Assembly (NCBI RefSeq): GCF_005233835.1
Contig: NZ_SZQA01000025.1
Span: 1 to 64,000, forward strand
DNA from: Herbidospora galbida
GTDB lineage: Bacteria; Actinomycetota; Actinomycetes; Streptosporangiales; Streptosporangiaceae
Direction: 5' to 3'
DNA length: 64,000 nt
How positions within the stretch are numbered: the stretch's first letter is position 1; each line of letters begins with the position of its first letter. Below the pieces are notes generated by a model that saw only the letters and a list, made by a program, of their open reading frames with translations, had not been told where the DNA came from and did no database searches. Both the position numbers and the translations under genes were made by a program. Shown here one piece after another: positions 1 to 20,214 of this stretch.

Positions 1-713
1 AGCCCCGGCCGGCCCGCCGCCACCAGCGCGGCCTGGCCGACCGCCTGCGCCACCAGCCGCCGGTCGCCCACCTCGGCCGCCGCCCGCTCGTCGGCCGCCC
101 GCTCCACCAGGAAGCCGACCTGGGCGCTCACCCAGCGCAGCGCCGGATGCGCGGCTCCGGCCAGTTCCGCGAGCCGCACCAGGCGGTGGTGCGCGCCGTC
201 GAGATGGGCGCGTTCGTGGGCCAGCAGGGCGGCGTACTGCCGGTCGGTCAGCGCGGCGCGCATGCCGCTGGTGACCACCACCCAGCCCGGCCGGCCGGGG
301 ACCGCGAAGGCCGTCACGGCGGGGTCGTCGACCAGCAGGACGTCACCGTGGGGACGCGGGAACAGCCGCCCGGCGCGCAGGTCACGGCGGTGCCGCCGGT
401 GCGTCCACGCCACCGCGGCGACCACCGCCGCCAGCAGCGGCGCCGACCCCCACGACACCCACGGCACCTCGGCGACGTCGGCCCGGACGACGCGCTCGGA
501 CCACCCCATCAGGTGGGCCACCGACGGGACCTCGGCGAGCGCGTGGAGGGCGAACACCAGCAGGTTCGCCGTCCCGGCCACCGCGACCGCCACGGCCGAC
601 CAGGCCAGCACCCGCGCGGCCAGCGCCGGGGCGAGCCGGCCCGCCACGAGCGCGGCGACGAGCACCGCCAGCGGCGGCACGACCACCACCGAGACCACGA
701 AGTGATCGAACAT
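1..713 (-). CDS. M56/M48-type membrane metallopeptidase (BlaR1-like), partial
   Basis: Predicted membrane-embedded zinc peptidase of the M56 (BlaR1/MecR1) type, running off the left edge of the window. The visible 237 residues start at an ATG preceded by GGAGG. They contain hydrophobic segments at about residues 6-25, 33-60 and 88-103, then the zinc motif HERAH at 166-170 and a downstream ERAADERAA stretch (about 204-212) that supplies the usual third ligand. It is divergent from a BlaI-family repressor gene 65 bp away. In known systems the peptidase inactivates BlaI, so a sensor/repressor pair is likely. No sensor domain can be judged because the C-terminus is missing. Confident for the family; the inducing signal is unknown. 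Confidence 0.85.
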   Translation of the reverse strand, partial: MFDHFVVSVVVVPPLAVLVAALVAGRLAPALAARVLAWSAVAVAVAGTANLLVFALHALAEVPSVAHLMGWSERVVRADVAEVPWVSWGSAPLLAAVVAAVAWTHRRHRRDLRAGRLFPRPHGDVLLVDDPAVTAFAVPGRPGWVVVTSGMRAALTDRQYAALLAHERAHLDGAHHRLVRLAELAGAAHPALRWVSAQVGFLVERAADERAAAEVGDRRLVAQAVGQAALVAAGRPG

Positions 714-778
714 CCGGGCACCTCCCGGCCATCAGCCTGCCACGAGATCCGGAACGTCCCGATATAGGGTGTGCCCCG

Positions 779-1165
779 ATGAACACGGACCCCGGTGACC
801 GCGACGGGCGCCGCCCGCCCGGCGGGCTGGAGGCCGCGATCCTGACGGCCCTGCGCGAGGCGGGCCGCTCGCTCACCCCCGGCCAGGTCAGGGACCTGGT
901 CGCCCCGGACGGCGGCCTGTCCTACAGCGCCGTGGTCACCACCCTGATCCGCCTGCACAAGAAACAGGCCGTGACCCGCCGCCGCGAGGGCCGCTCCCAC
1001 CGCTACGGCGCTCTGGTCGACCCGGCCGACCTGGTCGCCCAGCGGATGACCGCCCTGCTGCAGGCCGAGCCCGACCGCTCGGGCGTGCTCCGGCGCTTCG
1101 TCGACGACCTGGCCGCCGAGGACGAACAACTCCTGCGCCGCCTCCTCGACGACGCCACCGAGTAA
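779..1165 (+). CDS. BlaI/MecI-family transcriptional repressor
   Basis: A 128-residue winged-helix protein of normal BlaI length. The helix-turn-helix spans about residues 20-75, with the recognition region around LTPGQVRDLV and SYSAVVTTLIRLHKKQAV, and an acidic C-terminal dimerisation tail. It is transcribed away from the M56 peptidase, its expected proteolytic partner. No ribosome binding site precedes the ATG. Instead a TATAGGGT element lies about 8 bp upstream, so the mRNA may be leaderless. The usual TACA/TGTA BlaI operator is not obvious in the 65-bp gap. Confidence 0.88.
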   Translation: MNTDPGDRDGRRPPGGLEAAILTALREAGRSLTPGQVRDLVAPDGGLSYSAVVTTLIRLHKKQAVTRRREGRSHRYGALVDPADLVAQRMTALLQAEPDRSGVLRRFVDDLAAEDEQLLRRLLDDATE

Positions 1166-1226
1166 TGAATCGTCTCAGAACCGGCTGCTTGGTGACGGCG
1201 CGGTTCAAGCCGGTCGGCGCCCTGGC

Positions 1227-2141
1227 TCAGCCGAGGGAGTTTCCGGTGACGTCCCACAGCCGCGCCGCGATCTCCATCCGCTCGACGAACCCCTCCTCCG
1301 TGAGGGTCGCGTCGTCGAGGACGAAGTCGAGGAAGACCTCGTCGATCCCCGCGTCGCGGTAGGCCGCCAGGTCGGCCCCGATCTGCTCCCAGGTGCCCTG
1401 GAAGGGCCGCCGCCGGTGCTCGGTGAAGCGGACGTTGGCCCGCACCACCACCTCCGGCTCCGGCCGGCCCGCCTCGCGGGCGCTCGTGAACAGGGTCTCC
1501 CGCAGGGGCAGCAGCATGTCGAGCGGCAACCCGCCCGGCAGCCACCCGTCGGCCAGCCGGCCGGCCCGTTCGACCGCGCGGGGGGCGTACACGCCCAGAT
1601 AGATGCGCGGGGCGGCCGGCTTCGGTTCGAAGGCCGTCTCGGGGACGGTGAAGAACTCCCCCGTGTACGCCGTCGTCCCCGCGCCCCACAACCCCCGGAG
1701 CACCGTGACGAACTCCTCGCTGCGCCGCCCCTGGCCGTCGGGGGTGTTCCCGGCCGCCTCGATCTCGTCGAGCGACCAGCCCTGGCCCAGGCCGGGGCGC
1801 AACCGGCCGCCGCTCAGCGCGTCGAGCGTGGCCAGTTGCTTGGCCAGCACGACCGGGTTGTGCAGCAGCATGCACAGCACGCTCGTGCCCAGGGTGATCC
1901 GCGTGGTCACGGCGGCGGCGAAGGCCAGCGTCGTGAGGGGGTCGTAGGCGATCTTCATGGTCTGCGGAAGGCCGCCGTCGCGCGTCCCCGGATAGCGGCT
2001 GCGCGGCTTGACCGGGTCGAGCAGGCGCTCGCCCGCCCACAGAGAGTGATAGCCGAGCTCCTCGGCCCGCCGGGCTGCCGAGGCGATGAAGCCGGGTGAG
2101 GCGAGGTGTCCGAGAGTCGGCAGTCCGAGTCCTAGTCGCAT
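1227..2141 (-). CDS. LLM-class F420-dependent oxidoreductase
   Basis: A 304-residue luciferase-like monooxygenase-fold (TIM barrel) protein. It starts MRLGLGLPTLG and carries the typical blocks HSLWAGERLL, DPLTTLAFAAAVTTRITLGTSV and RLRPGLGQGWSLDEIEAAG, then a C-terminal segment ending in a predicted barrel closure. In actinobacteria this subfamily mostly binds coenzyme F420 rather than FMN; the substrate cannot be inferred. The ATG is preceded by GGAAGG at good spacing. It is divergent from the membrane phosphatase-like gene, with about 100 bp between them. Confidence 0.85.
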   Translation of the reverse strand: MRLGLGLPTLGHLASPGFIASAARRAEELGYHSLWAGERLLDPVKPRSRYPGTRDGGLPQTMKIAYDPLTTLAFAAAVTTRITLGTSVLCMLLHNPVVLAKQLATLDALSGGRLRPGLGQGWSLDEIEAAGNTPDGQGRRSEEFVTVLRGLWGAGTTAYTGEFFTVPETAFEPKPAAPRIYLGVYAPRAVERAGRLADGWLPGGLPLDMLLPLRETLFTSAREAGRPEPEVVVRANVRFTEHRRRPFQGTWEQIGADLAAYRDAGIDEVFLDFVLDDATLTEEGFVERMEIAARLWDVTGNSLG

Positions 2142-2242
2142 ATCGAGAACCTTCCACGATCACTCGCCGTTGACGCTGGACGCGGCGCACGCCGACCCCC
2201 TACGGTGCCGTGTGCCTGGTGGCGTCGACAGAGGGGGACACC

Positions 2243-4348
2243 GTGCGGCGGTGGGCTGCGGGGATGGTCACGGCCATGCTGGTCGCGATCGTGTGGGGGG
2301 CGCCGGCGGCGGCCCGCGCCGAAGGCCCCGGGCAGGTGGCGCTCATCGGGGTGCCCGGCCTGATGTGGAGCGACGTCACCGAAAGTGACACCCCCAACCT
2401 GTGGCGGCTGGCCGGTGAGAGCGCCGTCGGGTCGCTGTCGGTCAAGGCGGTCGGCACGATCACCTGTCCCTACGACGGATGGCTGACGGTCTCGGCCGGG
2501 GTCAGGTCGGCCGTCGGCCGCCGGTGCGGGCTGCCGCCCCTGCCGGTCGAGGGCACCAACCGGCTCCACGAGTTCGGCTGGTTCGCCTCGGTCGCCGGGG
2601 TGCCCACCGCGGGCTCGGTCGGCACGCTGCCCGGCACGATGGCGGTCGGTCCCGGCGGGGTGCTGGCGCTGTCCGACCGGCAGGGCGCCGTCGGCCGCTA
2701 CCACGCCACGGTCGAGGAGGTCGCCGACTGGTCGGCGCCGGTGATCGCGGTCGACGTCGACACGCTGATCCGGCCCTACGTCGGCGCCGACGGCAAGGTC
2801 TCCCCCGAGCCCGAGGCGGTCGCCGCGGCCGATCGGACGGCGGCGGTCCGGCAGGCCGACGCCCAGGTGGGCGCGGTGCTGGCCCAGCTGCCCGCCACGG
2901 CGACCGTGCTGGTCGCGGGGCTGGCCGACCACGGGTCGGTGCCCCACCTGCGGGTGGCGATGATGCGCGCGCCCGGCACGACCGGCACCAGCCTGCTCGG
3001 CTCGGGCTCGACCCACCGCGACGACATGATCATCCTGCCCGACCTGACCGCGACCCTGTTCAGCGCCGCAGGGCAGGCCGCCGCCATCCCGCCGACCGTC
3101 ATCGGGCAGCCGCTGAAGGCGGGTGCGCCGATCCCGCTCGACGAGGCCGTCGACCGGCTCAGGAACGCCGACACGGCCGGGCAGACGATCCGGAACATGG
3201 GCGGGATCTTCTTCACCACGCTGGCCGTGCTGCAGGTGCTCTTCTACGGGGCGGCGTTCCTGCTGCTGCGCCGCCGGTCGGCACTGGGCCTGGTCAGGGT
3301 GGCCGCCGTCGCGCTGGCCTCGATCCCGGTGTCGACCTACCTGATCAACCTCACGCCCTGGGAGGCCGGCCCCGCCCCGACGCTCACCCTGATCGGCGGG
3401 CTGGTCGCCTGCGACGTCGTGCTCACCGTGCTCGCCCTGCGGGCGGCCCGGCTCACCAAGCCGGAGAACATCCTCGCGCCGCTCATCGTCGTGGCGGGCG
3501 TCACCGCCGCCGCGCTGCTCGGCGACCTTCTCTCCGGTACGCACCTGCAGCTCAACAGCGTCATGGGCTACACGGGCGTGGTCGGGGCCCGCTACTACGG
3601 CCTGGGCAACATCCCGTTCGCGCTGCTGGCCACGGCGGTGCTGCTGGTCGCCACGGCGGTCGCCGACACGCTGGTCCGGCACGGCCGCCGGCCCCTCGCG
3701 GTCGGCCTGATCGCCGCGCTGGGGGTGTTCGCGATGATCCTCGGCGGCTGGCCGGGGGTCGGCAGCGACTTCGGCGGCGTGATCGCGTTCGTGCCCGGCA
3801 TCGCGGTCGCCGCGCTCATCGTCGCGGGGCGGCGGGTGTCGATCTGGAAGCTCGGCCTGTTCTGCGTGGCCGGCGGCGTGATCGTGCTGTCGATCGCCTA
3901 CCTCGACTACCGGCGCCCGCCCGGGTCGCAGACCCACCTCGGGCGGTTCGTCGGGCAGATCTTCGACGGCACGTTCTGGCCGGTCATCGCGCGCAAGCTC
4001 GACGCCATGCTGGGCACCCTGCTCAGCCCCAACCTGATGCCCGTCGTCATCGCCGCCGTGGCGTTCCTGGTGTTCGCGGTGCTGCGGCCGGGCGCGGCGA
4101 CGGCCGGGGTGCTGCCGGTGGCGTTCGAGCGGGCGCCCATGCTGAAGGCGGGCCTGCTCGGCGCGCTGGTCAGCGGCGGCGTCGGCATGCTGGTGAACGA
4201 CTCGGGCGCGGCCGTGCTGTCGATGGCGCTGGCCCTGGCGGTGCCGCTGGTGCTGAGCGCCGGGATCAGGGCCATCCAGCTCGACGGGGCCTCACCCGGC
4301 GACGGCAGCCGTGCGGAGGGCGCGGTAAAGCAGCCGCGCGTCGCCTAG
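2243..4348 (+). CDS. Polytopic membrane protein with alkaline-phosphatase-superfamily ectodomain
   Basis: A 701-residue protein. The GTG at 2243 is chosen because GAGGGGG lies just upstream and a signal peptide follows (RRWAAGM...WGAPAAARA). Residues about 27-315 look like an alkaline phosphatase/phosphoglycerate-mutase fold: a TPNLWRLA segment, an ADHG...PH metal-site-like motif, and the C-terminal LPDLTATLFSAAG block. The position usually occupied by the first metal-binding Asp (VDG) reads VPG, so catalysis is uncertain. About eight membrane helices follow (from roughly residue 325 to 680). Its 3' end overlaps the convergent NurA-like gene by 57 bp. No substrate can be assigned; a cell-envelope role is a guess from topology. 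Confidence 0.75.
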   Translation: MRRWAAGMVTAMLVAIVWGAPAAARAEGPGQVALIGVPGLMWSDVTESDTPNLWRLAGESAVGSLSVKAVGTITCPYDGWLTVSAGVRSAVGRRCGLPPLPVEGTNRLHEFGWFASVAGVPTAGSVGTLPGTMAVGPGGVLALSDRQGAVGRYHATVEEVADWSAPVIAVDVDTLIRPYVGADGKVSPEPEAVAAADRTAAVRQADAQVGAVLAQLPATATVLVAGLADHGSVPHLRVAMMRAPGTTGTSLLGSGSTHRDDMIILPDLTATLFSAAGQAAAIPPTVIGQPLKAGAPIPLDEAVDRLRNADTAGQTIRNMGGIFFTTLAVLQVLFYGAAFLLLRRRSALGLVRVAAVALASIPVSTYLINLTPWEAGPAPTLTLIGGLVACDVVLTVLALRAARLTKPENILAPLIVVAGVTAAALLGDLLSGTHLQLNSVMGYTGVVGARYYGLGNIPFALLATAVLLVATAVADTLVRHGRRPLAVGLIAALGVFAMILGGWPGVGSDFGGVIAFVPGIAVAALIVAGRRVSIWKLGLFCVAGGVIVLSIAYLDYRRPPGSQTHLGRFVGQIFDGTFWPVIARKLDAMLGTLLSPNLMPVVIAAVAFLVFAVLRPGAATAGVLPVAFERAPMLKAGLLGALVSGGVGMLVNDSGAAVLSMALALAVPLVLSAGIRAIQLDGASPGDGSRAEGAVKQPRVA

Positions 4349-5248
4349 CCGGTGGCGCAGCAGCTTCTCCAGCCCGCCGATCGGGACCAGGTTCTGCGGC
4401 GCCCTCGGGTCTTTGTAGTCGACCCCCGCCATCGGCGGCAGCGCGACCGTGACCCGGTCGGCGAGCTCGGCGGCGTCTTCGGCCGACAGGTCGGCGCCCG
4501 CCTCGCAGCGGGCGATCCCGGCCCACGGGGCCGTCGAGATCGTGGGCAGCCGCAGGTACCAGGCGTAGCGGCTCCAGTTCGTGCCCATGAAGAAGACCGG
4601 GGTCCGCTGGCCCGGCTTCAGGTCGGACACCACGGCCGACTGGGCCGGCGGCAGGTAGGACGTGTGGTGGGTCTTCACGTAGCCGACCGCGTTGGGCAGG
4701 TGGGTGCGCCCCCGCAGCGGCCCGTCGACCACCAGCAGCTCGTCGTGCCCGGTCTGCGCGCGGTATCTCAGGGCCAGGTCGACTTCGAGCTCGGTCAGTT
4801 TCTGCTGGAGCGCCAGTGACCCGTCGTCGTCGCCGGTCACCTCGTGGGAGGTGTACGTCACCGGCCCCGCCACCAGGTCGGCCACGCCCTTGGCCGGGCT
4901 GAACACCCCTCTCTTGACCTCGACCGCGACGGGTTCGGCCCCCTCGCCGCACCGCACGATCCCGGCGGCGTAGGAGGCCGCGATGCCGGGCGCGGGCATG
5001 CCGCCCTCGGGGTCGTCGACCCAGACCCGGGCGTCGATCCGGCGCACGCCGTCGGCGATCAGCAGCGTCTCGGGCCGTTTCGTCGTCGCGCCGGGGGTGA
5101 TCGGCCGCCACTGCAGGACGGGGATCTCGACGTCGAGGGTGAGGGCGGCGCTGCTGCCCTCCATCTCGGCCTCGAAGGCCAGGCTCGCGCCGTAGCCGGG
5201 GTCCCAGGGATCGACGCTGAACCCGGGGGCGTGGTACGTGGTGGTCAC
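4292..5248 (-). CDS. nurA: NurA-like 5'-3' nuclease domain protein
   Basis: A 318-residue protein, last gene of the herA-sbcD-sbcC operon. Its GTG start overlaps the sbcC stop by 4 bp. It shows the NurA pattern of an RNase H-like nuclease: an early acidic motif LLIADGVRRIDAR (Asp66), a second LLVVDGPLRG (Asp175), VGYVKTHHTSYLPP shortly after (about 188-201), and a C-terminal block with NLVPIGGLEKLLRHRLG. In archaea NurA works with the HerA translocase and Mre11-Rad50 to resect DNA ends. The same four functions are encoded here in a row, which strongly supports the call. Overall identity to archaeal NurA is likely low, and such proteins are often left as hypothetical in actinobacteria. Confidence 0.75.
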   Translation of the reverse strand: MTTTYHAPGFSVDPWDPGYGASLAFEAEMEGSSAALTLDVEIPVLQWRPITPGATTKRPETLLIADGVRRIDARVWVDDPEGGMPAPGIAASYAAGIVRCGEGAEPVAVEVKRGVFSPAKGVADLVAGPVTYTSHEVTGDDDGSLALQQKLTELEVDLALRYRAQTGHDELLVVDGPLRGRTHLPNAVGYVKTHHTSYLPPAQSAVVSDLKPGQRTPVFFMGTNWSRYAWYLRLPTISTAPWAGIARCEAGADLSAEDAAELADRVTVALPPMAGVDYKDPRAPQNLVPIGGLEKLLRHRLGDARLLYRALRTAAVAG

Positions 5249-7785
5249 CGAACCACCTTTCTGACGTGGGAGCCGGAGGCGTCGCGGGCGACCTCGTACC
5301 GGACCGGAACCCGGTCGGCCAGGGCCGGAACGTGGGTGACGACGCCGATCATGCGTTCGTGGCCGGAGGCGAGCTTCTCGAGGGTCGCGGCCACCGTGTC
5401 GAGCGTGGCGGGGTCGAGGGTGCCGAACCCCTCGTCCAGGAAGATCGAGTCGAGGCTCCGGGCGGCGGCCGCCGCGAGCCCCGCGACCTGGTCGGACAGC
5501 GCCAGCGCGAGGGCGAGGGAGGCCTGGAAGGTCTCTCCGCCCGACAGGGTGCGGGCGCTGCGGCGCAGCCCCGCCTCGGCGTAGTCGACGACCTCGATGT
5601 CGCCCCTGCTGCCGAGCACGAGCTCGTACTGACCGTCGGACAGATCCTTCAGGGTCTCCGAGGCGGCCGCGACGAGCAGTTCGAGCGCCTCGGCGCAGAG
5701 CCAGCGCTCGAACTGGTTGGCCCGCAGCAGCAGAGCCAGCTCGTGGGCGACCCTGGCCTCCCCCTCGTGACCGGCGACGCGCTCGGCCAGGTCGGCGGCG
5801 CGCTCCCGCGCCTCCCTGACCCGGGCGAGCCTCTCGTCGGCCTGCGCGGCGGCGCGGGCGACCTGCTCGGCCATCCGGTCGCCCGCCTTCACCGCGACGC
5901 CGTGCTCGGCGATGCGCTCGGCCAGCACCCGGCGGGCCTCCTGCGCGCTCCCCCGGGCCCTCTCGAACCCGGCTTCGGCGGCCTCGGCCTCCCGCCGACG
6001 GACCTCGGCGGCGCCGTCACGCCAGGCCAGCAGGGCGGTCCAGGCGGCGTGGACGTCACCGGGGTCGAGTGGCGGCGGCCCGAAGGCGGCGACGGTGTCA
6101 CGGGCCGCGTTGAGATCCCGCCAGGCCTGCTCTGCCTTGCGTCGGGCCTCGTCGACCGCGCGGGCGGCCTGTGCGGCGTGGCGGCGGGCCTCCCGGGCGT
6201 CGCGCCGGATGTCTCCCACCTTCCCGGCGGCCCGGTCGATCGCGACAAGGAGCTCCTCGATAGCGGCGACCCTCTCGAGGTCGGGCGGAGCGGCCGTGGC
6301 CAGCTCACGGGCCCGGGCGGTGAGGAGCTCGGCCTTGGCGGCGAGACCGTCGTGCCGGGTGCGGGCCTGCTGCCCCTTCTCCCGAATCGCGGCCAACCGG
6401 CGTTCCGCAGCGGCCAGCTCCTCGGCCGCGGAGACGACATGGCCGTGGGGGCCGCGCGGCTCGGGCCCGCCAGAGCCGGCGGGCACGTCAGCGCCGTGCG
6501 GGTCGGACCCGCCGGCGCGGGCCTGCTGACTCGCGGGCACGTCGGTCGGTCTCGGGCCGATGGGGAGGACGGTGACGAGCTGGTGGCAGACCGGGCAGGG
6601 GTCGCCCGGGGTGAGCGTGCGCGCCAGGTCGGCGGCCGTGTGGGCGATCCTGGTCTTCGTGAGGTGGCGGTCGGCCTCCTCGTAGTCGCGGAAGGCCGCG
6701 GCCAGCGACTCGGCGGCCTCCGCCAGCTGGACGGTGACGGTGTCGGCCTCCTTCCGGGCCGCTTCGGCTTCGGCGGTGCGGCGGGTGCGGTCGGCGAGGT
6801 CGGCGAGCTCTCGCCTCAGGGCGGTCTGGTTGCCCAGGGCCTCCAGGTCGGTCTCCGCCTCTTCCTCCAACGCGTCGAGGCGGGCCTGTTCGAGCACCGC
6901 CGCCTCGGCCCGTTCGGTGGCGCGGCGGGCCGATTCGGCCAGGCCGGGCACCTCACCGGGCAGCGCGAGGGCGCCCAGCTGGGCCAGCGCGCGGAGCACC
7001 GTCACCCGTTCGGCGTCGGCCGTCTTGGCCGCCTCGTCGAGGGCCCGGAGTTCCTCCAGGTCGGCGCCTACCCGCTCCGACAGCGCGCGCAGGGCGGCGG
7101 CGCGCTCGCGGGCGGTCTCCTCGGCCTGCTCGTCGGCGTCGTGCAGGCGGGACAGCTCGCCCCTGGCGAACTCGGCGGCCTGGTTCTGCTTGGTCTCCTC
7201 GGCGACGGCGGCCTTGCGGACCTGCTCGTAGACGTCGGCGTCGAGGAGCTGCACGAGCAGGTCCTGGCGGTCGCTCGGGGTGGCGTGCAGGAACTCGGCG
7301 AAGCGGCCCTGGGGCAGCACCACGCACTGGGTGAAGAACTTGTATTCCAGGCCGGTGACCTGGGCGACCTCGGCGGCGACCTGTTCGCCTTCGGCCACCG
7401 GCCGGGAGGTCGCGGTCAGCTCGACCAGGTCGGAGTCGGCCGGGACCGACGGGTCGAGCAGGTCGAGCCGGGCCTCCTTGGTGCGGACCGTCCCCTTGGC
7501 GTCGCGCAGCAGGGTGCGGACGGCGGCGTAGCGGCGGCCGGAGACCTCGAAGACCAGGGCGACCTTGCCGGAGGCGGCGGAGGGGGCCAGCGCGTAGGCG
7601 ACGACGTTCTCCTTGCCCCACCGGGGCACGCTGCCGTAGAGGGCGAAGCAGATGGCGTCGATGACGGTGCTCTTGCCGGCCCCGGTCGCGCCGACCAGCG
7701 CGAAGTAGTCGACCTCGGCGAAGTCGACGTCGGTGGCGGCCCGGAAGCTGCCGAAGTTCTCCATGTGCAGCCGGAGGGGGCGCAT
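5245..7785 (-). CDS. sbcC: SbcC (Rad50-like) SMC-type ATPase
   Basis: An 846-residue Rad50/SbcC ATPase. Walker A GATGAGKST is at 32-40, then a Q-loop region (FTQCVVLPQGRFAEF, about 151-165). Two coiled-coil arms flank a zinc hook CPVC at 397-400, followed by the signature LSGGE at 747-751 and Walker B with FLDEGFGTLD at about 782. The ATG at 7785 is used because its first base is the last base of the sbcD stop (TGATG), which gives translational coupling. The frame stays open upstream, but that part only shadows sbcD. It is shorter than many SbcC proteins, so the arms are modest. With SbcD it forms the DNA-end-binding nuclease complex. A Gly/Pro/His-rich insertion follows the hook. Confidence 0.95.
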   Translation of the reverse strand: MRPLRLHMENFGSFRAATDVDFAEVDYFALVGATGAGKSTVIDAICFALYGSVPRWGKENVVAYALAPSAASGKVALVFEVSGRRYAAVRTLLRDAKGTVRTKEARLDLLDPSVPADSDLVELTATSRPVAEGEQVAAEVAQVTGLEYKFFTQCVVLPQGRFAEFLHATPSDRQDLLVQLLDADVYEQVRKAAVAEETKQNQAAEFARGELSRLHDADEQAEETARERAAALRALSERVGADLEELRALDEAAKTADAERVTVLRALAQLGALALPGEVPGLAESARRATERAEAAVLEQARLDALEEEAETDLEALGNQTALRRELADLADRTRRTAEAEAARKEADTVTVQLAEAAESLAAAFRDYEEADRHLTKTRIAHTAADLARTLTPGDPCPVCHQLVTVLPIGPRPTDVPASQQARAGGSDPHGADVPAGSGGPEPRGPHGHVVSAAEELAAAERRLAAIREKGQQARTRHDGLAAKAELLTARARELATAAPPDLERVAAIEELLVAIDRAAGKVGDIRRDAREARRHAAQAARAVDEARRKAEQAWRDLNAARDTVAAFGPPPLDPGDVHAAWTALLAWRDGAAEVRRREAEAAEAGFERARGSAQEARRVLAERIAEHGVAVKAGDRMAEQVARAAAQADERLARVREARERAADLAERVAGHEGEARVAHELALLLRANQFERWLCAEALELLVAAASETLKDLSDGQYELVLGSRGDIEVVDYAEAGLRRSARTLSGGETFQASLALALALSDQVAGLAAAAARSLDSIFLDEGFGTLDPATLDTVAATLEKLASGHERMIGVVTHVPALADRVPVRYEVARDASGSHVRKVVR

Positions 7786-8933
7786 CAGCCGGTCACCTCG
7801 TCGTGCAGCCGGTCGAACAGGGCCCCCAGTGCTTCGACGTCCTTGCCCGACGCGGCCAGGTATTCGCGGACCAGGTCGCGCGGGCCCCTCCCCGCGCCGG
7901 TCGCCTGGCGTCTGCGCACGCTCGCGGGCCGGAAGTCGGGATGCAGGTCGACCTGGAGGGCGCCCGGGAGGAGTTCCCTGACCGTGTCGGCCAGCCCCGC
8001 CCGGGGCTTCTCGGCCACGACCACCCGGAGCCAGGCGTCGCCCAGGTCGGCGGCCATCGCCTCCAGCCGGTCGAGACTGCCGGTGACCGTGGTCAGCGTC
8101 TTGGCCTTCTCCAGGGCCACCTCGCGCACCTTCGCCGGTACGCCGGGCTCGACCTCGACGATCAGCACGCCCGGCTGGTTCTTCTCCTCGCCGAAGTCGA
8201 CGGCGATGGGCGAGCCGCTGTACCAGATCGGGCACGCCCCCGGCATCTGCTGCCGCCGGTGGAGGTGGCCCAGCGCGGCGTACTGGGCGGTGGGGGGGAA
8301 CGCGGTCGACTCGAAGTAGTAGGAGAAGATCGTCTGGGCCTGGCGTTCGCCGCCGCCCATCTTCCCGCCGGGGAGGGTGCCGTGGGTGGTCACCAGGTTG
8401 ACGGTGTCGCCGGTGAAGCCGGAGGTCAGCGCCTCGGCCAGGCGGCCGAAGCGGTCGGCGTAGCTGCGGTTGTGCTCGGCGGCGGTCTCGGTGATCAGCT
8501 CGGCGGCCCGCACCACGTGGCGGTGGGACAGGAACGGCAGCACCGCGCACTTCACCGGTTCGCCGGTCCGGGCGGTGAACTCGATCAGCCCGCCCTGGTC
8601 GGGCCGCCGGAACAGCCCTGAGACGTGGATGCCCAGCGCCCCCAGCACCGGCCGGTAGACCTCCAGGAGCTGCGCGTTGTCGTGGTTGCCGGCCAGCACG
8701 ACCACCTCGCGGCCGCCCTCGCGCAACTGCATCAGCGCGTTGACGACCAGGCCCTGCGACTCGGGCGTGGGCGCGGAGGTGTCGAACAGGTCACCGGCGA
8801 CCAGCACCAGGTCGACGTCTTCGCGCCGGGCCACGCCGACCAGCTCCCAGAGCACGGCGCGGTGCTCGTCGTGCCGCCCCCGGCCCTTGAGGACCTTGCC
8901 GACGTGCCAGTCGGCCGTGTGCAGGATCTTCAT
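7785..8933 (-). CDS. sbcD: SbcD (Mre11-like) exonuclease/endonuclease
   Basis: A 382-residue calcineurin-like phosphoesterase with all Mre11/SbcD metal motifs visible: DWHVGK (Asp8, His10), AGDLFD (Asp48), AGNHD (Asn83-His84-Asp85), a TTHGT motif and GHLHRRQ. The C-terminal half is the Rad50-binding and capping region. It lies 30 bp downstream of the HerA-like gene and overlaps sbcC by one base, which fits a stoichiometric complex. The protein processes double-strand ends and hairpins in known systems. Confidence 0.96.
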   Translation of the reverse strand: MKILHTADWHVGKVLKGRGRHDEHRAVLWELVGVARREDVDLVLVAGDLFDTSAPTPESQGLVVNALMQLREGGREVVVLAGNHDNAQLLEVYRPVLGALGIHVSGLFRRPDQGGLIEFTARTGEPVKCAVLPFLSHRHVVRAAELITETAAEHNRSYADRFGRLAEALTSGFTGDTVNLVTTHGTLPGGKMGGGERQAQTIFSYYFESTAFPPTAQYAALGHLHRRQQMPGACPIWYSGSPIAVDFGEEKNQPGVLIVEVEPGVPAKVREVALEKAKTLTTVTGSLDRLEAMAADLGDAWLRVVVAEKPRAGLADTVRELLPGALQVDLHPDFRPASVRRRQATGAGRGPRDLVREYLAASGKDVEALGALFDRLHDEVTG

Positions 8934-8963
8934 CGCGCCCTTCTTCTTGCAGGCAGATTCGCT

Positions 8964-10703
8964 TCAGAACGGGGGAATGTCGTCTTCAGGCGCGGGCAGC
9001 CCCGCGAACGGATCTCTCTGAAGGGCCGGGGACGCGGGGGCCGCGCCGGCCTCCGACGGCCGGGTGGCCCAGGCGGGGAACGGGAAGTTCACGGCCAGCG
9101 GTACGGGGATCTCCGGCTGGACCGCGAACATGGTGCCCGGTTTGGCGATGGTGGCGCGGTCGCGGGCGGTGCCGGTCAGCCAGCCGTATTCCGAGCGGGT
9201 GGCCTCGGCGGGGTCGAGCCGCCCGGCGATGCGGACGGCGCAGTTGGCGACGATGCGCCGCTCCACCTCGGAGGCGGTCTGCTGGGCCCCGATGAGGATG
9301 ACGCCGAGCGAGCGGCCGCGCTCGGCGACGTCGAGCAGGATCTCCTTGATCGGGGAGTCGCCGTCGCGGGGGGCGTACTTGTTGAGCTCGTCCAGGACCA
9401 CGAACAGCAGCGGCCGGGCCGAACCCGACAGCTCCTTGCGGGCGAACTCGCCGCGCAGCACCACGCCCACCACGAACCGCTGGGCGCGTTCGGGCAGGTT
9501 GTGCAGGTCGACGATGGTGACCTGGGCGTCGGAGACGCCGATCGAGTGGGCCCGCCCGGCCGGCAGGTCGCCCCGCACGATCGGGGTGAGCGACCTTATC
9601 GAGCTGCGCAGCCGCCGCAGGAACGCGTTGACCGTGCCCAGCGACGCCGGGAAGCCGGTCCAGGAGGCCCGGCTCGACTCGTCGGCCAGCCGTTCGTCGA
9701 TCAGGTCGACCAGCTGGGGGTAGGTGCGGCACTCGACGTCGTCGACCTTGACCGCGCCCGAGTCGCCCAGCGGCTCGGCCAGCACCTTCAGCTTCGCCGC
9801 CACCTGGCCGATCAGCAGGCTGTACTGCGCCTTCTCGTCGTCGGCGTCGGCGAAGACGTAGCGGAGGAGCTCGGCGTCGCAGAACTCGGCCAGCGTCCAG
9901 TAGAAGGAGCTGACGCCCTTGGTGCGGGCCGTGACGTGGGGCACGCCGTGGACGTCGCCGGGCCTCGGCGGCGCGAACACGTGGACGCTCCTGAACGGCT
10001 GGGCGGGCAGCCCGAGCGTGGCGTAGGCGGCGCGGGCGGTGTCGTCGACGCGGGTGTTGGCGTGGTCGAGGAACAGCAGGTCCTCACCCTTGACGGAGAA
10101 GATCAGCGCCTTGGTGTTGGCCGCCTCGGGCCCCAGCACGCCGGAGTTGAACACCGAATAGAGCAGGAACGTCGCGAACGAGGTCTTGGTCGCCACGCCG
10201 GACACCCCGGAGATCGACACGTGCGCGCCGCGGGTGCCGTCGAGGAAGTCGAAGTTGAGGTAGGCCGGTTCGCCGTCGCGGCCGAGGCCCATGGGCACCC
10301 GGCGCTCCATCACGTCGAAGTAGAGCGCCTGGTCGCGGTCGGCCCCCTTGGCCCGGAACGCCGGCGCCCCCGGCAGCGGCGGCACGAACACCTCGGGCTC
10401 GACCCGGGTGACCCGCACCTCAGCGACCTCGACGACGGCCGCCGGCAGCGACCCCTCGGAGATCAGGAACACGTCGGAGTCGTAGGCGGCCCCCTCGTGC
10501 CGGGCCTCGACGTGGGTGACCACCCCGGCGACCAGCACCGGCCCGTGGCCCGGCACCTCGCGCCGCGTCACCACCACTTCGTCGAGCTGCACGACCTTCC
10601 CCGGCTCCAGGCCGATCCAGAACGACAGGGGCGAGGCCGACTGTGTGCCCAGCACACGGCCGACGGCCTCCCCGGCAGGGGCACCAGCGAACCCATCCGT
10701 CAC
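8964..10703 (-). CDS. herA: HerA-like hexameric DNA translocase ATPase
   Basis: A 579-residue ATPase of the FtsK-HerA superfamily. The first 110 residues resemble the HAS barrel (for example RVLGTQSASPLSFWIG). The P-loop region is at about 166-175 and reads GVSGVATKTS, lacking the usual second glycine of GxxGxGK[ST]. Walker B is LLFVVLDELNKYAP (about 432-445), followed by GVILIGAQQTASEVERRI, which matches the sensor/arginine-finger region of HerA proteins. It starts with GTG and lies 21 bp after the HIT gene and 30 bp before sbcD, so all are probably co-transcribed with the NurA-like gene. The expected role is DNA translocation feeding NurA during end resection. The unusual P-loop leaves ATPase strength open. 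Confidence 0.85.
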   Translation of the reverse strand: MTDGFAGAPAGEAVGRVLGTQSASPLSFWIGLEPGKVVQLDEVVVTRREVPGHGPVLVAGVVTHVEARHEGAAYDSDVFLISEGSLPAAVVEVAEVRVTRVEPEVFVPPLPGAPAFRAKGADRDQALYFDVMERRVPMGLGRDGEPAYLNFDFLDGTRGAHVSISGVSGVATKTSFATFLLYSVFNSGVLGPEAANTKALIFSVKGEDLLFLDHANTRVDDTARAAYATLGLPAQPFRSVHVFAPPRPGDVHGVPHVTARTKGVSSFYWTLAEFCDAELLRYVFADADDEKAQYSLLIGQVAAKLKVLAEPLGDSGAVKVDDVECRTYPQLVDLIDERLADESSRASWTGFPASLGTVNAFLRRLRSSIRSLTPIVRGDLPAGRAHSIGVSDAQVTIVDLHNLPERAQRFVVGVVLRGEFARKELSGSARPLLFVVLDELNKYAPRDGDSPIKEILLDVAERGRSLGVILIGAQQTASEVERRIVANCAVRIAGRLDPAEATRSEYGWLTGTARDRATIAKPGTMFAVQPEIPVPLAVNFPFPAWATRPSEAGAAPASPALQRDPFAGLPAPEDDIPPF

Positions 10704-10724
10704 CCGAGGCAGGGTAGTGCAGCC

Positions 10725-11264
10725 TTACGACGTTTTCTCGGGCCATGCCCGCGCGAGCAACTCGCGGGTGTCTCGGAGCAACTGTGGTAGGACGCGCGTC
10801 TGCCCGACGATCGGCATGAAGTTGGTGTCGCCGCCCCAGCGGGGCACGACGTGCTGGTGGAGATGGGCGGCGATGCCGGCCCCCGCGACGTGCCCGAGGT
10901 TCATCCCGACGTTGAACCCCTGCGCCCCGCTCGCCTCCCGCAGCGTGACGAGCGCCTTCTGGGTGAACTCGGCCAGTTCGGCCGTCTCGGCGGCGTCGAG
11001 GTCGGTGTAGTCGGGCACGTGCCGGTAGGGACAGACCATCAGATGGCCGGAGTTGTACGGATAGAGGTTCAGTACGGCGTACACGACCTCGCCCCGGGCC
11101 ACGATGAGCCCGTCGGCGTCGTCCATCTTCGGGATCTCGCAGAACGGGCACCCGTCACCGGCGCCCGGCCCGGTCGGCTTGTTCTCCCCCTTGATGTACG
11201 CCATCCGGTGCGGCGTCCAGAGCCGTCCGAATGCGTCGGGCACGTCTGTCATGTCGGCCAGCAT
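10725..11264 (-). CDS. HIT-domain protein (Ap4A phosphorylase-like)
   Basis: A 179-residue histidine-triad protein with the active-site motif HLHQHVVPRW, an upstream zinc-type CPFCEIPK segment and NLYPYNSGHLMVCPYRHV. It resembles the actinobacterial HIT protein that phosphorolyses diadenosine tetraphosphate (Rv2613c type), a cytoplasmic nucleotide-cleaning role. The start could be this ATG or the one four codons in (MTDVPDAF); neither has a clear ribosome binding site. In many actinobacteria this gene directly follows thrS. Here thrS is about 7 kb away and the HIT gene instead heads the herA-sbcD-sbcC-nurA run. Confidence 0.9.
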   Translation of the reverse strand: MLADMTDVPDAFGRLWTPHRMAYIKGENKPTGPGAGDGCPFCEIPKMDDADGLIVARGEVVYAVLNLYPYNSGHLMVCPYRHVPDYTDLDAAETAELAEFTQKALVTLREASGAQGFNVGMNLGHVAGAGIAAHLHQHVVPRWGGDTNFMPIVGQTRVLPQLLRDTRELLARAWPEKTS

Positions 11265-12159: not shown

Positions 12160-12759
12160 TCAGGCGGGTGGCCAGTTCCGCAACGTTGCGTCGGCCACCT
12201 GTTGCAGGTCCTCGCATGCCGCGCCGCCGGCTGCCTGTACGGCGATGCCGTTCGCGATCGTCATGACATAGCGAGCGATTTTCTCCGGGTCGGCGCTGTC
12301 GGGCAGATCGCCCGTCTGGACGGCCTGCCGGAACCTGTCCCGGAGCAGTGCCTGGCCGTGGGCGCGCCACTCGGCCAGGATGTCGCGGGCGGTCCGTCCG
12401 GTCCCGCCGGCGGCCAGTGCGCCCTGGACGCCCAGGCAGCCGGCGGGGAGTCCGGGCATGGTGCCGGAGCGGGCGGCGCCGGCGAGGAAGGCCGCGGCGA
12501 CCTCGCGGGCAGTGGGTTCCCGCAGCGCTTCGGCGACGTAGGCGCCGGGGCCTTCTTCGTAGCGCCGCAATGCCTTGCGGAAGAGGTCCTCCTTGTTGCC
12601 GTAGGCCGCGTACAGGCTCTTGCGGGAGATGCCCATGGCTTCGGTCAGGTCGGTGAGGCTGGCACCTTCGTAGCCCTGCGCCCAGAAGACCGTCATCGCC
12701 TTCTCGAGCGCCGCCTCGGCGTCGAATGCCCGGGGGCGGCCGATCTGTGACGCGCGCAT
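12160..12759 (-). CDS. TetR/AcrR-family transcriptional regulator
   Basis: A 199-residue TetR protein. The N-terminal helix-turn-helix (residues 8-55) contains [20 protein letters not shown] and [17 protein letters not shown]. The C-terminal ligand/dimerisation region includes the segment [10 protein letters not shown] typical of the AcrR/TetR_C subgroup. It is divergent from a SnoaL-like gene, and two palindromes of the CACCG-N2-CGGTG type lie in the shared promoter region, so it likely represses itself and its neighbour. Confidence 0.9.
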
Positions 12760-12776
12760 GTCGCCATCCTACCGGT

Positions 12777-12828
12777 TTGACACCGTTCGGTGCCGAACTG
12801 GTACTGTCCTGTTCGGCACCGATTGGTG
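12777..12828. promoter_or_regulatory. Double TetR-type operator over a divergent promoter
   Basis: Two related 12-bp palindromes, CACCGTTCGGTG (12781-12792) and CACCGATTGGTG (12817-12828), start 36 bp apart. The sequence also contains a longer inverted repeat, GGTGCCGAAC (12789-12798) with GTTCGGCACC (12811-12820). A TTGACA at 12777-12782 overlaps the first site and may be the -35 element for the SnoaL gene. Arrangement and symmetry fit binding by the adjacent TetR protein (inference). Confidence 0.65.
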
Positions 12829-12880
12829 CGTATATTTCTGCACTTCACCGCTTCTTGCGGCACGAGAGAAGAGAATCGCC

Positions 12881-13273
12881 ATGTCCGAGAGTGATCTGCG
12901 TGACTGGTACATGCGCTACGCCGAGGCGCTCAACGCCCACGAGTTCGACCGCATGGACGAGTTCATCAACGACCAGGTACTGCTCGGCGGTCAGCCCGCC
13001 ACCCGCGAGGACGTCGTCACGGTCCTGAAGGGGATCGCCGACGCCGTCCCGGACATCCGCTGGGACGTCGATGAACTGCTGTTCGACCGGGACGGCATCG
13101 CCGTCCGCGCCATCAACACCGGCACCCCGGCGAAGGAATGGCTCGGCGTCCCGCCCACCGGCGCCTCGTTCGAGATCGTCGAGTACGCCATCTACAAGGT
13201 CCAGGACGGCCGGTTCACCCAGATGACAAACCTGCACGACTCCGCCGAGATGCTCCGGCAGCTGACCGCATGA
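12881..13273 (+). CDS. SnoaL-like / ester-cyclase-fold protein
   Basis: A 130-residue protein of the NTF2-like SnoaL family. It shows [21 protein letters not shown] at the start, a central [19 protein letters not shown] strand region and the G-x-x-P-T-G-x-x-F-E hallmark ([19 protein letters not shown]). The ATG at 12881 is preferred because GAGAAGAG precedes it and the family begins here; an open frame further upstream runs through the operator region. Members act as small-molecule cyclases, isomerases or detoxifying enzymes; the substrate is unknown. Regulated, presumably, by the divergent TetR gene. Confidence 0.85.
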
Positions 13274-13320
13274 CCACCGCCAGCCGTTGTCGACCACCTT
13301 TCGCTGGGTTCGGGGCTCCT

Positions 13321-13402
13321 GCCACTGATCAGCGGCGAAGGATCCGCCTCACCCCCGCCGCGATCCGGCACGACCTCCAGACCGGCCAGGCGGCCTTGAT
13401 CA
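13321..13402 (+). pseudogene. Second IS5-type transposase 3'-end remnant (inverted relative to 11922-12098)
   Basis: The plus strand reads RRRIRLTPAAIRHDLQTGQ then AALIR, which lines up with the C-terminal block L-A-x-x-I-W-H-N-x-x-T-G-x-P of IS5-type transposases. At DNA level, 13357-13397 reversed matches 11951-11990 closely, including an identical 18-base core. The fragment stops at the end of the GH15 gene. It is heavily decayed, with no terminal repeats seen. Confidence 0.5.
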
Positions 13403-15229
13403 GGCCGTGGTTCCTGCTTCCGCCCTGGCGAGATTGACGCCGCTGGCGATGATCCCGATGTGGCTGAACGCCTGCGGGAAGTTGCCGGTGAATGCTCCCG
13501 TGGACGGGTCGATCTGCTCGGGCATCAGCCCGACCGGGCTCGCGCGGGCGCACAGCGACGTGTACAGATCCTCAGCCCGTTCTCGATGGCCCTGCAGGAT
13601 CAGGTTGTCGACCAGCCAGAAGCTGCACAACAGGAAGGCACCCTCGTCGCCGGGCAGGCCGTCGGGGGATTCTTCGTGCAGGTACCGGTAGAGCAGGCCG
13701 TCACCGGCCGACAGACGTTCGGCGATGGCCGCAGTGGTGGCGGCCATGCGTGGATGGCCGGCCGGGATGACCTTGCGCAGCGGCAGCGCGAGCAAGCTGG
13801 CGTCCAGACCGCCGCCGCCGTCGAGGTGCTCGCTCAGGCATTGAGCCTCCTCGTCCCAGGACTGCTCGAGGATGAGCCGGCGCAGCTTCTCGGCGGTGGC
13901 CCGCCAGCCGGTGTTCGGCCCGGACAGGCCGAGCCGCTCGCCGATGGCCGCGGCCCGGTCCAGGGCCACCTGACACATCCCGGCCGAATAGGTGAAGACC
14001 CGGCCTTCGCTGCGTACCTCCCAGATGCCCTGATCCGGCTGCCGCCACGTCTGCGCGGCGGCCTCGGCCAGCTCCGCCAGACCGGACCACAGCGCCGGCT
14101 GGAGTTCGCGGCCGCGGAGCAGCCACTGATCGGCGCAGTCCAGCACCTCGCCGTAGACGTCGTGCTGGCGCTGGTCGGCGGCGCCGTTGCCCCACCGCAC
14201 CGGCGCCGACCGCCGGTAGCCTTCCAGGCCGCCGTCATGGATCTCCTGGGGTACGGGGTCGCCGCGAAGGGTGTACATGATCCGCGGATGGCGGCTCTGC
14301 TCGAAGGCGTCCAGGACCCAGCCGAGGAAGGCGTCGGCCTCCTCCTCGAAGCCCACGCGGCGGAACGCGAACACGGCGTACGCGGCGTCGCGGATCCAGG
14401 TGTAGCGGTAGTCCCAGTTGCGCACCCCGCCGATCGGCGCGGGCAAGGACGAGGTGGGCGCCGCGACCAGCGAGCCGTTGCCCCAGTCGTCGCACAGCTT
14501 CAACGTGATCACCGAGCGCCGGACCAGCGCTTCCTGCGGGCCGCGGTAGCTGCACTTGCGCATCCAGCGCCGCCAGGCCTCGGTGGTCTGCCGCAGCATC
14601 GCCTCGGGGTCGAACCGGTGATGGCGGTGGAGGCGGCCCCAGGACAGCACTAGATCGAGGCGGTCGCCCTCCTGAAGGTCGTGCGCGGTGCGCAGGCCGG
14701 TCAGCGGGCGGCTGGAACGCAGATGTAGCCGCAGGTCGGGCCGCCGGGAGACGAGCACCTCCAGACCGCTGCACAGGGCCCTGGCCTGCCCGCCGCCGCG
14801 CGGCTCCAGCTCCGCCCGCAAGCGCACGGTCCCGGCTTGCACGACCGCGGACCGGATCAGCTCGTCCCGGCCGCCGCCCGCGTCGTCGCTGAGGTCGGCG
14901 CCGGCACGCAGGGCCAGCCCGTCGGTGATCCGGACCAGGCCGGTCGGACCGCGCAGCTCGGTCACCAGCACCGCGGTGTCCGGCTCGTAGAACTGCCGGG
15001 CCTCGCGCAGGTCGTCCACGGTGAGCGTGAAGTGACCGCCGCGTTCGTGATCCAGCAGGCCGCACAGCAGAGGGTCGCTGTCGAAGCGGGGCAGGCACAG
15101 CCATGGGATCGAACCGTCCACGCCGACCAGCGCCGCCGTCGTGCCGTCGCCGATGAGGCCCAGGTCCTCTAGGGGCAGGTAGCCCTCCCGGCGGTGCACC
15201 GGGCGGAAGGGTGGATCGAGATCGAGCAT
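13400..15229 (-). CDS. Glycoside hydrolase family 15 protein (glucoamylase/trehalase-like)
   Basis: A 609-residue GH15-type protein. The N-terminal super-beta-sandwich starts LPLEDLGLIGDGTTAALVG and GSIPWLCLPRFDSDP. The (alpha/alpha)6 barrel shows the family hallmark NWDYRYTWIRDAAYAV and ends with MPEQIDPSTGAFTGNFPQ and SHIGI, where the catalytic base lies. The ATG at 15229 has GGAGGAG 8 bp upstream; the open frame extends further but is non-coding there. No signal peptide is seen, so it probably acts inside the cell on trehalose or an alpha-glucan. A small Cys-rich ORF lies 68 bp upstream on the same strand. Confidence 0.9.
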   Translation of the reverse strand: MLDLDPPFRPVHRREGYLPLEDLGLIGDGTTAALVGVDGSIPWLCLPRFDSDPLLCGLLDHERGGHFTLTVDDLREARQFYEPDTAVLVTELRGPTGLVRITDGLALRAGADLSDDAGGGRDELIRSAVVQAGTVRLRAELEPRGGGQARALCSGLEVLVSRRPDLRLHLRSSRPLTGLRTAHDLQEGDRLDLVLSWGRLHRHHRFDPEAMLRQTTEAWRRWMRKCSYRGPQEALVRRSVITLKLCDDWGNGSLVAAPTSSLPAPIGGVRNWDYRYTWIRDAAYAVFAFRRVGFEEEADAFLGWVLDAFEQSRHPRIMYTLRGDPVPQEIHDGGLEGYRRSAPVRWGNGAADQRQHDVYGEVLDCADQWLLRGRELQPALWSGLAELAEAAAQTWRQPDQGIWEVRSEGRVFTYSAGMCQVALDRAAAIGERLGLSGPNTGWRATAEKLRRLILEQSWDEEAQCLSEHLDGGGGLDASLLALPLRKVIPAGHPRMAATTAAIAERLSAGDGLLYRYLHEESPDGLPGDEGAFLLCSFWLVDNLILQGHRERAEDLYTSLCARASPVGLMPEQIDPSTGAFTGNFPQAFSHIGIIASGVNLARAEAGTTA

Positions 15230-15297
15230 GCCTGGTTCTCCTCCGTACTGACGTCCGCCGGCGGAGGGAAGCTCCGGGCGGGCGGACGTAGCTTCCG

Positions 15298-15465
15298 TCA
15301 CGAGACGGTGATCAGCACCTTCACCATGTCCTCGACCACCATGTCCTCGACGTTCTTGTCCGAGACCTCGAAGCCGCCCTCCATCCCGTCGAGGCGGAAC
15401 GGGTGGGTGGGCATGTGCTTGGACGCGCAGCAGCCGTTCCATGCGCAGCCGGCCGACGCTTTCAT
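15298..15465 (-). CDS. Small Cys-containing protein of unknown function (55 aa)
   Basis: Not recognised with certainty. From the ATG at 15465 nearly every codon ends in G or C, as in real genes of this window, while the upstream extension of the same frame does not. This favours a 55-residue product starting MKASAGC. It has a Cys cluster (Cys-Ala-Trp-Asn-Gly-Cys-Cys), an HMPTHPFRLDG segment, then an acidic stretch with repeated VEDMV and a C-terminal VKVLITVS. The Cys and His residues could bind metal (guess). It is co-directional with and just upstream of the GH15 gene, so they may share a transcript. Confidence 0.5.
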   Translation of the reverse strand: MKASAGCAWNGCCASKHMPTHPFRLDGMEGGFEVSDKNVEDMVVEDMVKVLITVS

Positions 15466-15792
15466 CGCTGCCCCGGTTTGTTCTTCGGCGTGCTTTCGAG
15501 GCGCGCAGACGGCGCCGATCACAGCCACATTCGCCGGTGTCGCCGACGGGACCCCATAGAGCGGCGCCCATGGCGTAGCCCGCTCACGCAGGCGCCGCGG
15601 CCCCCCGAAACGGCGCCACCGGTGACGGGCCTACCCTCCCGGGCTTATGGCTAACACCCGCTATCGCTCTGCGACGTGAGCGATCTCGCTGACGTTCAGT
15701 GCGTCGGCGACCCAGCAGCGGCGAGGCCGGCGGGACATCCATGCCACCGGCCCGTCGACACCATGACGGCCGATGGCGCCGGCCAGTTCAGG
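15466..15792. other. Gene-free stretch upstream of the small Cys protein
   Basis: These 327 bp between the small ORF and the 3' end of the TetR gene show no convincing ORF by codon use, no clear RNA gene and no strong hairpin. The sequence could include decayed material, but nothing can be identified. Confidence 0.4.
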
Positions 15793-16470: not shown

Positions 16471-16491
16471 CACTGTCTCTCTCTTCCGGTC

Positions 16492-16515
16492 TAAGCGGAC
16501 GATCGCGTCCACTTA
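16492..16515. promoter_or_regulatory. TetR operator between tetR and the MDR oxidoreductase
   Basis: Inverted arms TAAGCGGAC (16492-16500) and GTCCACTTA (16507-16515) match at 8 of 9 positions around a 6-bp centre. This is the classical half-site form (AAGTGGAC) bound by a known group of TetR regulators that control oxidoreductase genes. It lies 22 bp before the tetR start. Confidence 0.7.
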
Positions 16516-16571
16516 AGAGCTTAGGGTCGATGCCAGATCCCCGTACGACCCCCGGCGGCGAAGGCAGAACG

Positions 16572-18129: not shown

Positions 18130-20094
<1,965 letters not shown>

Positions 20095-20214
20095 GATGGT
20101 TCTCCTCAAACGAACGAGCGTGGATGTCAGGCCGACTCTACCGGGATTGAAGCGAGACGCGGACGGCCGAAGGCCGGCTGTGGCTCGCGTTGTGGATCTA
20201 CCTGAAGACGCGTC

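Follow-up and report, generated by a model that had tools for sequence, protein, structure and literature searches.

HerA and NurA are reported to be present in just a few bacteria, with a link of the Deinococcus proteins to sbcCD left open (PMC4663267), and their occurrence in Actinobacteria is mentioned in a review (PMC8708640). In Deinococcus, the HerA ring pumps duplex DNA into a NurA dimer, and mainly the 5' strand is cut during translocation, so that a 3' tail is left (PMC9960219). A gene cluster of Oceanithermus profundus that joins these functions to SbcCD was interpreted by its authors as SbcCD recruitment in that organism (PMC5448004). Joint resection of DNA ends by HerA-NurA and Mre11-Rad50 is disputed (PMC12977600), and a recurring bacterial set of the corresponding genes bears on this dispute. 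Such a set lies in the stretch of DNA analysed here, 64,000 nucleotides of Herbidospora galbida (assembly GCF_005233835.1, contig NZ_SZQA01000025.1, positions 1 to 64,000 of the forward strand; hereafter the window), where herA, sbcD, sbcC and nurA follow one another on the minus strand and form what is called the block below. Herbidospora galbida is a soil actinobacterium. The block is a conserved module, broader than an earlier reading of the letters without database searches (the sequence-only reading) had thought, and with a probability of roughly two in three it is a bacterial four-protein DNA-end-processing module, auxiliary to AdnAB and to a conventional SbcCD, that is kept or lost as a unit.

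Identity of the four proteins

The nurA gene (4292..5248, minus strand, GTG start) encodes a protein of 318 amino acids (aa) which, by profile and Foldseek comparison, is a predicted NurA-family nuclease with an RNase H-like fold. When checked against this family by hidden Markov model, as the sequence-only reading had proposed, the single protein scored 17.9 bits with Pfam NurA, under the cut-off of 21, whereas a profile of 29 aligned NurA sequences (the window plus 28 of 55 named loci) retrieved from the PDB Deinococcus NurA (7f6d_H, E 3.8e-48) and Thermotoga TM1739 (E 9.9e-17). At E ≤ 1 the Pfam family was matched by 25 of the 29 aligned members, the best at 2.6e-7, and the shortfall is evidently a matter of that single model. 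The AlphaFold model (predicted local distance difference test, pLDDT, 89.1) matched the RNase H-like NurA fold, with 7f6d_G (E 1.1e-17) and TM1739 (E 1.4e-13) as the top two Foldseek results. Five residues, D66, E155, D175, K192 and H194, are invariant in all 29 sequences, so that the NurA-like acidic motifs noticed from the letters, to which D66 and D175 belong, are real; D66, E155 and D175, acidic residues of the fold core, are taken by us to be catalytic. The NurA proteins of four Herbidospora species are 96-98% identical to that of the window.

The 579-aa product of herA (8964..10703, minus strand, GTG start) has no Pfam match; PDB profile and Foldseek searches identify it as HerA of Deinococcus type, a predicted DNA translocase ATPase. 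A profile of 25 HerA sequences (the window plus 24 of the 49 HerA-bearing loci) matched Deinococcus HerA (7f6d_B) with E 4.1e-195 over positions 5-558 of 578, and the structural model (pLDDT 80) matched 7wrw_A, again Deinococcus HerA, with E 1.2e-58, a template modelling (TM) score of 0.83 and 46% identity, the archaeal HerA entries listed in the Foldseek comparison being 14-17% identical to the window protein. The Walker A motif reads T-K-T in place of the usual G-K-S/T, and does so in all 25 aligned sequences and in Deinococcus HerA. For the latter, K175, T176, D220, D487 and E488 have been named as ATPase residues; phosphate and metal are bound by K175 and T176, and a K175 mutation is reported to impair ATPase activity and resection (PMC9960219). 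These residues align with K173, T174, D208, D438 and E439 of the window protein; K173, T174 and D208 are conserved in all 25 rows, D438 and E439 in 24, the remaining row being gapped. A dead ATPase resulting from the odd Walker A was ruled out, given that the motif is shared by Deinococcus HerA, whose K175 mutant is reported to be impaired. The DNA-translocation arginines R495 and R552 of Deinococcus HerA correspond to R446 and R503 in the window, which occur in 12 and 13 of the 25 rows, respectively, and are thus not general in the aligned family.

Between these two genes lie sbcD (7785..8933, minus strand, 382 aa) and sbcC (5245..7785, minus strand, ATG start, 846 aa), encoding a predicted Mre11-like nuclease and a predicted Rad50-like ATPase. 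SbcD passes the cut-off of the bacterial sbcd model TIGR00619 (172.5 bits against 77.65), outscores with it every Mre11 model, and matches SbcD 4lty in the PDB with E 6.5e-28. Family searches for SbcC, which used 5245-7788 and hence one extra codon at the start, fell short of the curated model TIGR00618 (245.8 bits, cut-off 478.5); the Pfam domains AAA_23 (1.3e-20) and SbcC_Walker_B (1.3e-10) are both above their cut-offs and a zinc-hook CPVC is present at residue 397, so the protein is classed as SbcC-like by its domains despite TIGR00618.

The source genome encodes a second SbcD with an SbcC beside it (G000:C94), by which a Herbidospora with the operon SbcD alone was ruled out; within the 9 kb read around this conventional SbcCD no HerA or NurA was found. 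In a 78-row SbcD tree, 20 of the 21 conventional SbcD picked form one clade (Shimodaira-Hasegawa-like approximate likelihood ratio test, SH-aLRT, 100), whose branch measures 2.7 changes per column, with one conventional row (L117) outside it, and 27 operon SbcD of the window's gene order plus two orphans are grouped apart from that clade (SH-aLRT 85, not starred). The tree is a quick version without bootstrap and carries a long-branch warning, and it is read here for the separation of conventional and operon SbcD in this order, not for deep history; it excludes five Herbidospora loci (L001-L004, L018), loci with an SbcD shorter than 330 aa or interrupted by stops, and the locus of G129. Within the order, the block SbcD accordingly is, as judged from this tree, a lineage apart from conventional SbcD. 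Two genomes of genus g16 (G154:C157, locus L095, and G181:C1, locus L096) carry an operon-type SbcD-SbcC pair without HerA or NurA, and the tree places the SbcD of both next to the operon SbcD of Streptosporangiales; these pairs are perhaps remnants of the block or an earlier stage of it.

Linkage, gene orders and surroundings

The four genes are tightly packed: 30 bp separate herA and sbcD, sbcD and sbcC have one base in common (TGATG), and sbcC and nurA overlap by four bases (GTGA). Together with a gene of the HIT family upstream, 21 bp from herA, they make up the run of five minus-strand genes described by the sequence-only reading, all of which lie where it had placed them; its names HerA, SbcD, SbcC and NurA also proved correct, and the four form one conserved module. 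A scan for promoters and terminators gave zero promoter-like sites and four terminator-like sites, none of them usable.

The distribution of the block was followed in 55 named loci, found by NurA, and in genome samples which overlap with them and are not independent (the HIT stretch of L127 and L130, for instance, is the same as that of L011 and L006). By hand count, with the incomplete loci rechecked by profiles, all four genes are present in 42 of the 55 named loci, and seven of the 13 incomplete ones (L021, L025, L030, L037, L038, L044, L048) are truncated where their contig ends. One of the 42, L020 from an Actinomycetota metagenome-assembled genome, has its HerA match (2549-4340) in pieces over several frames, with sbcD, sbcC and nurA in long open frames, and its herA looks broken or misassembled. 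In L035 (Candidatus Eisenbacteria, 1-4757), SbcD-SbcC are divergent from an opposite-strand nurA, and no herA was found on the 8.4 kb contig. Two gene orders recur. The order of the window, herA-sbcD-sbcC-nurA, is shown, as far as the genes are in view, by L001-L033, whose titles all name Actinomycetota; the order nurA-herA-sbcD-sbcC occurs in loci of Gemmatimonadota, Acidobacteria and other groups, including one Euzebyaceae. The four-gene set is therefore no peculiarity of this actinomycete, as it had first appeared to be, and recurs across Actinomycetota, Gemmatimonadota and Acidobacteria.

Among 200 genomes of the order, NurA was found in 47, HerA in 46 and a close SbcD (≥50% identity) in 48, all three together in 46. 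Of these 46 genomes, 42 have the three genes on one strand, with NurA no more than 6 kb and SbcD no more than 1 kb from HerA, and the other four have them on separate contigs; this count covers NurA, HerA and SbcD, with SbcC outside it. The exceptions are G129, with NurA and SbcC at a contig end and no HerA, and G154 and G181, with close SbcD and SbcC only. The neighbourhood survey that the sequence-only reading had suggested thus found the linkage kept in relatives. Of the two results named in advance as refuting that reading, a 318-aa protein with no NurA hit or fold and a lack of linkage in relatives, neither was obtained.

The phylum sample of 396 genomes held 94 with NurA and 110 with HerA, all 94 having both. 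Outside family f21, nurA stands directly before herA in 45 HerA-bearing genomes, and all 11 loci fetched from these also contain sbcD and sbcC; the window's order is found within 6 kb in 19 genomes and further apart in five, nurA and herA are on different contigs or strands in five, and three have HerA only. Family f21 comprises remote members, with 33 HerA-bearing genomes, 20 of them with NurA, and in the three loci fetched (L091-L093) remote versions of all four genes occur, SbcD and SbcC homologues adjoining. The HerA frames of f21 are longer (mostly 680-850 aa), and its NurA frames measure about 380-400 aa. In the window's own class, matches in this sample came only from the source genome and G403. 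The linkage recurs far beyond chance.

The surroundings of the block vary. Across 13 loci, flanks are common at like positions to Herbidospora and Acrocarpospora, to three Actinomadura, and to Microbispora and Planotetraspora; otherwise flank matches are only 41-49% identical and at unlike positions (Nonomuraea solani, Actinomadura, Thermomonospora), and two Nonomuraea loci have no flanking genes in common. In the window the block is enclosed by the HIT-family gene (10725..11264, minus strand, 179 aa; HIT PF01230 at 2.3e-13, and NF052622 at 248 bits, below the cut-off of 290) and, as its right-hand boundary, by a 712-aa gene of no Pfam family that converges on nurA (2210..4348, plus strand). 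Of 14 HIT loci fetched, L127 and L130, whose HIT DNA is that of Acrocarpospora L011 and L006, have the block between the HIT and 712-aa genes, as in the window. At eight of the 12 others the HIT gene adjoins the 712-aa gene with no block between them, and no 712-aa gene was found in the remaining four. Of the eight genomes with HIT and the 712-aa gene adjoining, three (G013, G049, G063) have the block elsewhere. Because the block-less arrangement is the more widespread, the block was probably inserted between the two genes here rather than lost elsewhere, and it seems to be mobile as a whole and is found again in several bacterial groups. A check of its borders for repeats gave nothing beyond imperfect GC-rich matches, and third-position GC is close to that of the flanks (0.96 in herA and nurA, 0.92 in the HIT gene, 0.97 in the 712-aa gene).

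Candidate roles of the block

As an auxiliary end-processing module, the block could act as follows. The SbcD-SbcC pair would open blocked, protein-bound or hairpin ends, allowing the HerA ring to load and resection to start; by analogy with Deinococcus and archaeal work, the ring would then pump duplex DNA into the NurA dimer with hydrolysis of ATP, and the dimer would trim the strands fed to it. Complex formation, pumping and resection by the block proteins may be expected on the same analogy, and the hand-over of ends from SbcCD to HerA-NurA is suggested by the linkage. That the same block, with its separate SbcCD lineage, persists in changing surroundings provides independent evidence that both machines work together.

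Several observations weigh against this interpretation. AdnAB-like pairs, defined as two PDDEXK matches no more than 6 kb apart on the same strand of a contig, occur in at least 37 of 50 genomes picked from the 110 HerA-bearing ones of the phylum sample (at least 35 if both frames reach 700 aa). The source genome itself has such a pair (G000:C37) with UvrD helicase and PDDEXK nuclease domains in both proteins, from which we infer AdnAB. A module acting in place of AdnAB was thereby ruled out, and the replacement of AdnAB implied by the sequence-only reading does not hold for a genome that has both this pair and a second SbcCD; as AdnAB-like pairs coexist with it, a missing AdnAB is not what makes the module necessary. 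By hand counts over genomes listed by genus, NurA is patchy within genera (22/25 in g7, 1/15 in g2, 3/5 in g21, 2/9 in g24), which is not what an essential repair route would show and, taken with the coexisting AdnAB-like pairs, makes the module look auxiliary and dispensable. The acidic residues D78, E80 and D81 by which Deinococcus HerA binds NurA correspond to D77, F79 and L80 in the window, one of three being kept; these positions are reported to align poorly in other bacteria (PMC9960219). Six named loci (L031, L035, L047, L049, L051, L055) are without herA or sbcCD nearby despite room for them, and the profile search agrees. Deinococcus NurA and HerA add little to radiation resistance according to PMC4663267, and a 2026 Thermococcus paper casts doubt on HerA-NurA resection and proposes an antiviral role (PMC12977600).

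These doubts, the patchy presence and a match of the NurA model to chain G of the TdpAB complex make defence the main rival: an anti-phage module in which HerA-NurA would destroy foreign duplex DNA and SbcCD would open or sense its ends, host repair being secondary. The occurrence of the block in different surroundings would agree with such a role, as would matches of the HerA model to the SIR2-HerA and DUF4297-HerA complexes and the PADLOC matches mads_8 for HerA (E 3.6e-9) and mads_3 for SbcC (9.1e-21). All these matches are, however, far weaker than that to Deinococcus, and HerA does not reach the NCBIfam HerA_antiphage cut-offs (16.5 against 850 bits and 12 against 800 bits). The annotated neighbours of the block, moreover, are thrS, HIT, Asp23, a TetR regulator and metabolic genes, no search having been aimed at flanking defence genes. 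Defence as the primary function is regarded as unlikely, at well under half the weight given to end processing.

Far less probable is a chance or merely ancestral neighbourhood in which SbcCD is functionally uncoupled from HerA-NurA. It could draw on the six of 13 incomplete loci that had room and in which the missing genes were not seen, on the two genomes with close SbcCD and no HerA or NurA, and on the unclustered state of the Deinococcus genes (PMC8708640), but it leaves unaccounted for the same four genes in two different orders, the overlapping stop and start codons, and a block that holds together in 42 of 46 genomes (the other four having separate contigs) while its surroundings vary between genera.

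The HIT gene had been put forward as an extra, unexpected partner. Of 101 genomes of the order, 100 gave one match each to the HIT orthologue (E ≤ 1e-30), which adjoins HerA in six genomes, five of Herbidospora and one of Acrocarpospora; the source genome has four HIT-domain genes in total. That it is a fifth functional member, with a role in, for instance, repair-linked nucleotide signalling or clean-up, is scarcely credible: it shares the strand of herA across a short gap in Herbidospora, but this gap measures 92 to 2884 bp in four Acrocarpospora loci, the gene occurs with or without the block, and at eight of 12 loci it lies beside the 712-aa gene instead. The HIT gene is judged to be a bystander, a neighbour by position only.

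Going beyond an auxiliary module, HerA, NurA, SbcD and SbcC might constitute one physical bacterial machine, in which a dedicated SbcCD loads the HerA-NurA pump on ends, and a portable module that is distributed over Actinomycetota, Gemmatimonadota and Acidobacteria and has an evolutionary history distinct from that of the archaeal operon. This proposal is tentative and falls somewhat short of an even chance; if true, the partnership of Mre11-Rad50 with HerA-NurA would have been selected for well outside thermophilic archaea. Culturable actinomycetes with the block offer a place to test the partnership of HerA-NurA and SbcCD.

Neighbouring genes and comparison with known systems

HIT and thrS genes are neighbours in actinobacteria. 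In the window, thrS lies at 18130-20109, 7 kb from HIT, among other annotated neighbours (Asp23, a TetR regulator and metabolic genes); the interval between Asp23 and thrS (12160-17537) contains TetR regulator, GH15 hydrolase and dehydrogenase genes. The distance from the 659-aa thrS frame to herA is 7.4 kb in the window, which has an extra stretch there, as in Herbidospora yilanensis (L001) the two are 1.7 kb apart. Farther away, both on the minus strand, are a gene for a 1541-aa glycoside hydrolase family 38 (alpha-mannosidase-like) protein with extra C-terminal domains (25392-30017) and a RecQ-type helicase gene with DEAD, RQC and HRDC domains (50694-52634), about 39 kb from HIT.

Within the same cell, the conventional SbcCD belongs to the same enzyme family as the block pair, with its SbcD in a separate clade, and the AdnAB-like pair represents an end-processing helicase-nuclease type made of unrelated families. 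Compared with other organisms, the archaeal herA-mre11-rad50-nurA operon clusters the same four functions, and the sequence-only reading had accordingly called the block archaeal-type. The proteins do not bear this out: HerA is 46% identical to that of Deinococcus against 14-17% for archaeal HerA, SbcD fits the bacterial sbcd model and passes its cut-off, and an archaeal protein origin was ruled out for HerA, NurA and SbcD, whose best PDB matches by profile and fold are bacterial. By profile comparison and predicted structure they are thus bacterial proteins in an archaeal-like gene set. The closest relative of solved structure, for both HerA and NurA of the block, is the Deinococcus radiodurans NurA-HerA pair (PDB 7f6d, 7wrw, 7wrx; PMC9960219), which has the same T-K-T Walker A, Walker B, catalytic aspartate and NurA fold. 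In Deinococcus, nurA-herA are described as unclustered with the mre11 and rad50 homologues (PMC8708640), whereas here sbcD-sbcC stand between herA and nurA.

No description of an actinobacterial four-gene block was found in the literature searched; Iyer 2004, Cheng 2015 and Constantinesco 2004 may already cover some of what is described here. Systems of this kind are known, and the bacterial precedent in print, among the literature searched, is one organism: Oceanithermus profundus, in whose nurA-hepA-sbcD-sbcC cluster the HerA gene is followed downstream by sbcD and sbcC (PMC5448004). Likened by gene order alone, it resembles the Gemmatimonadota loci. The loci described here extend the known occurrence of the four-gene set in bacteria beyond this single organism.

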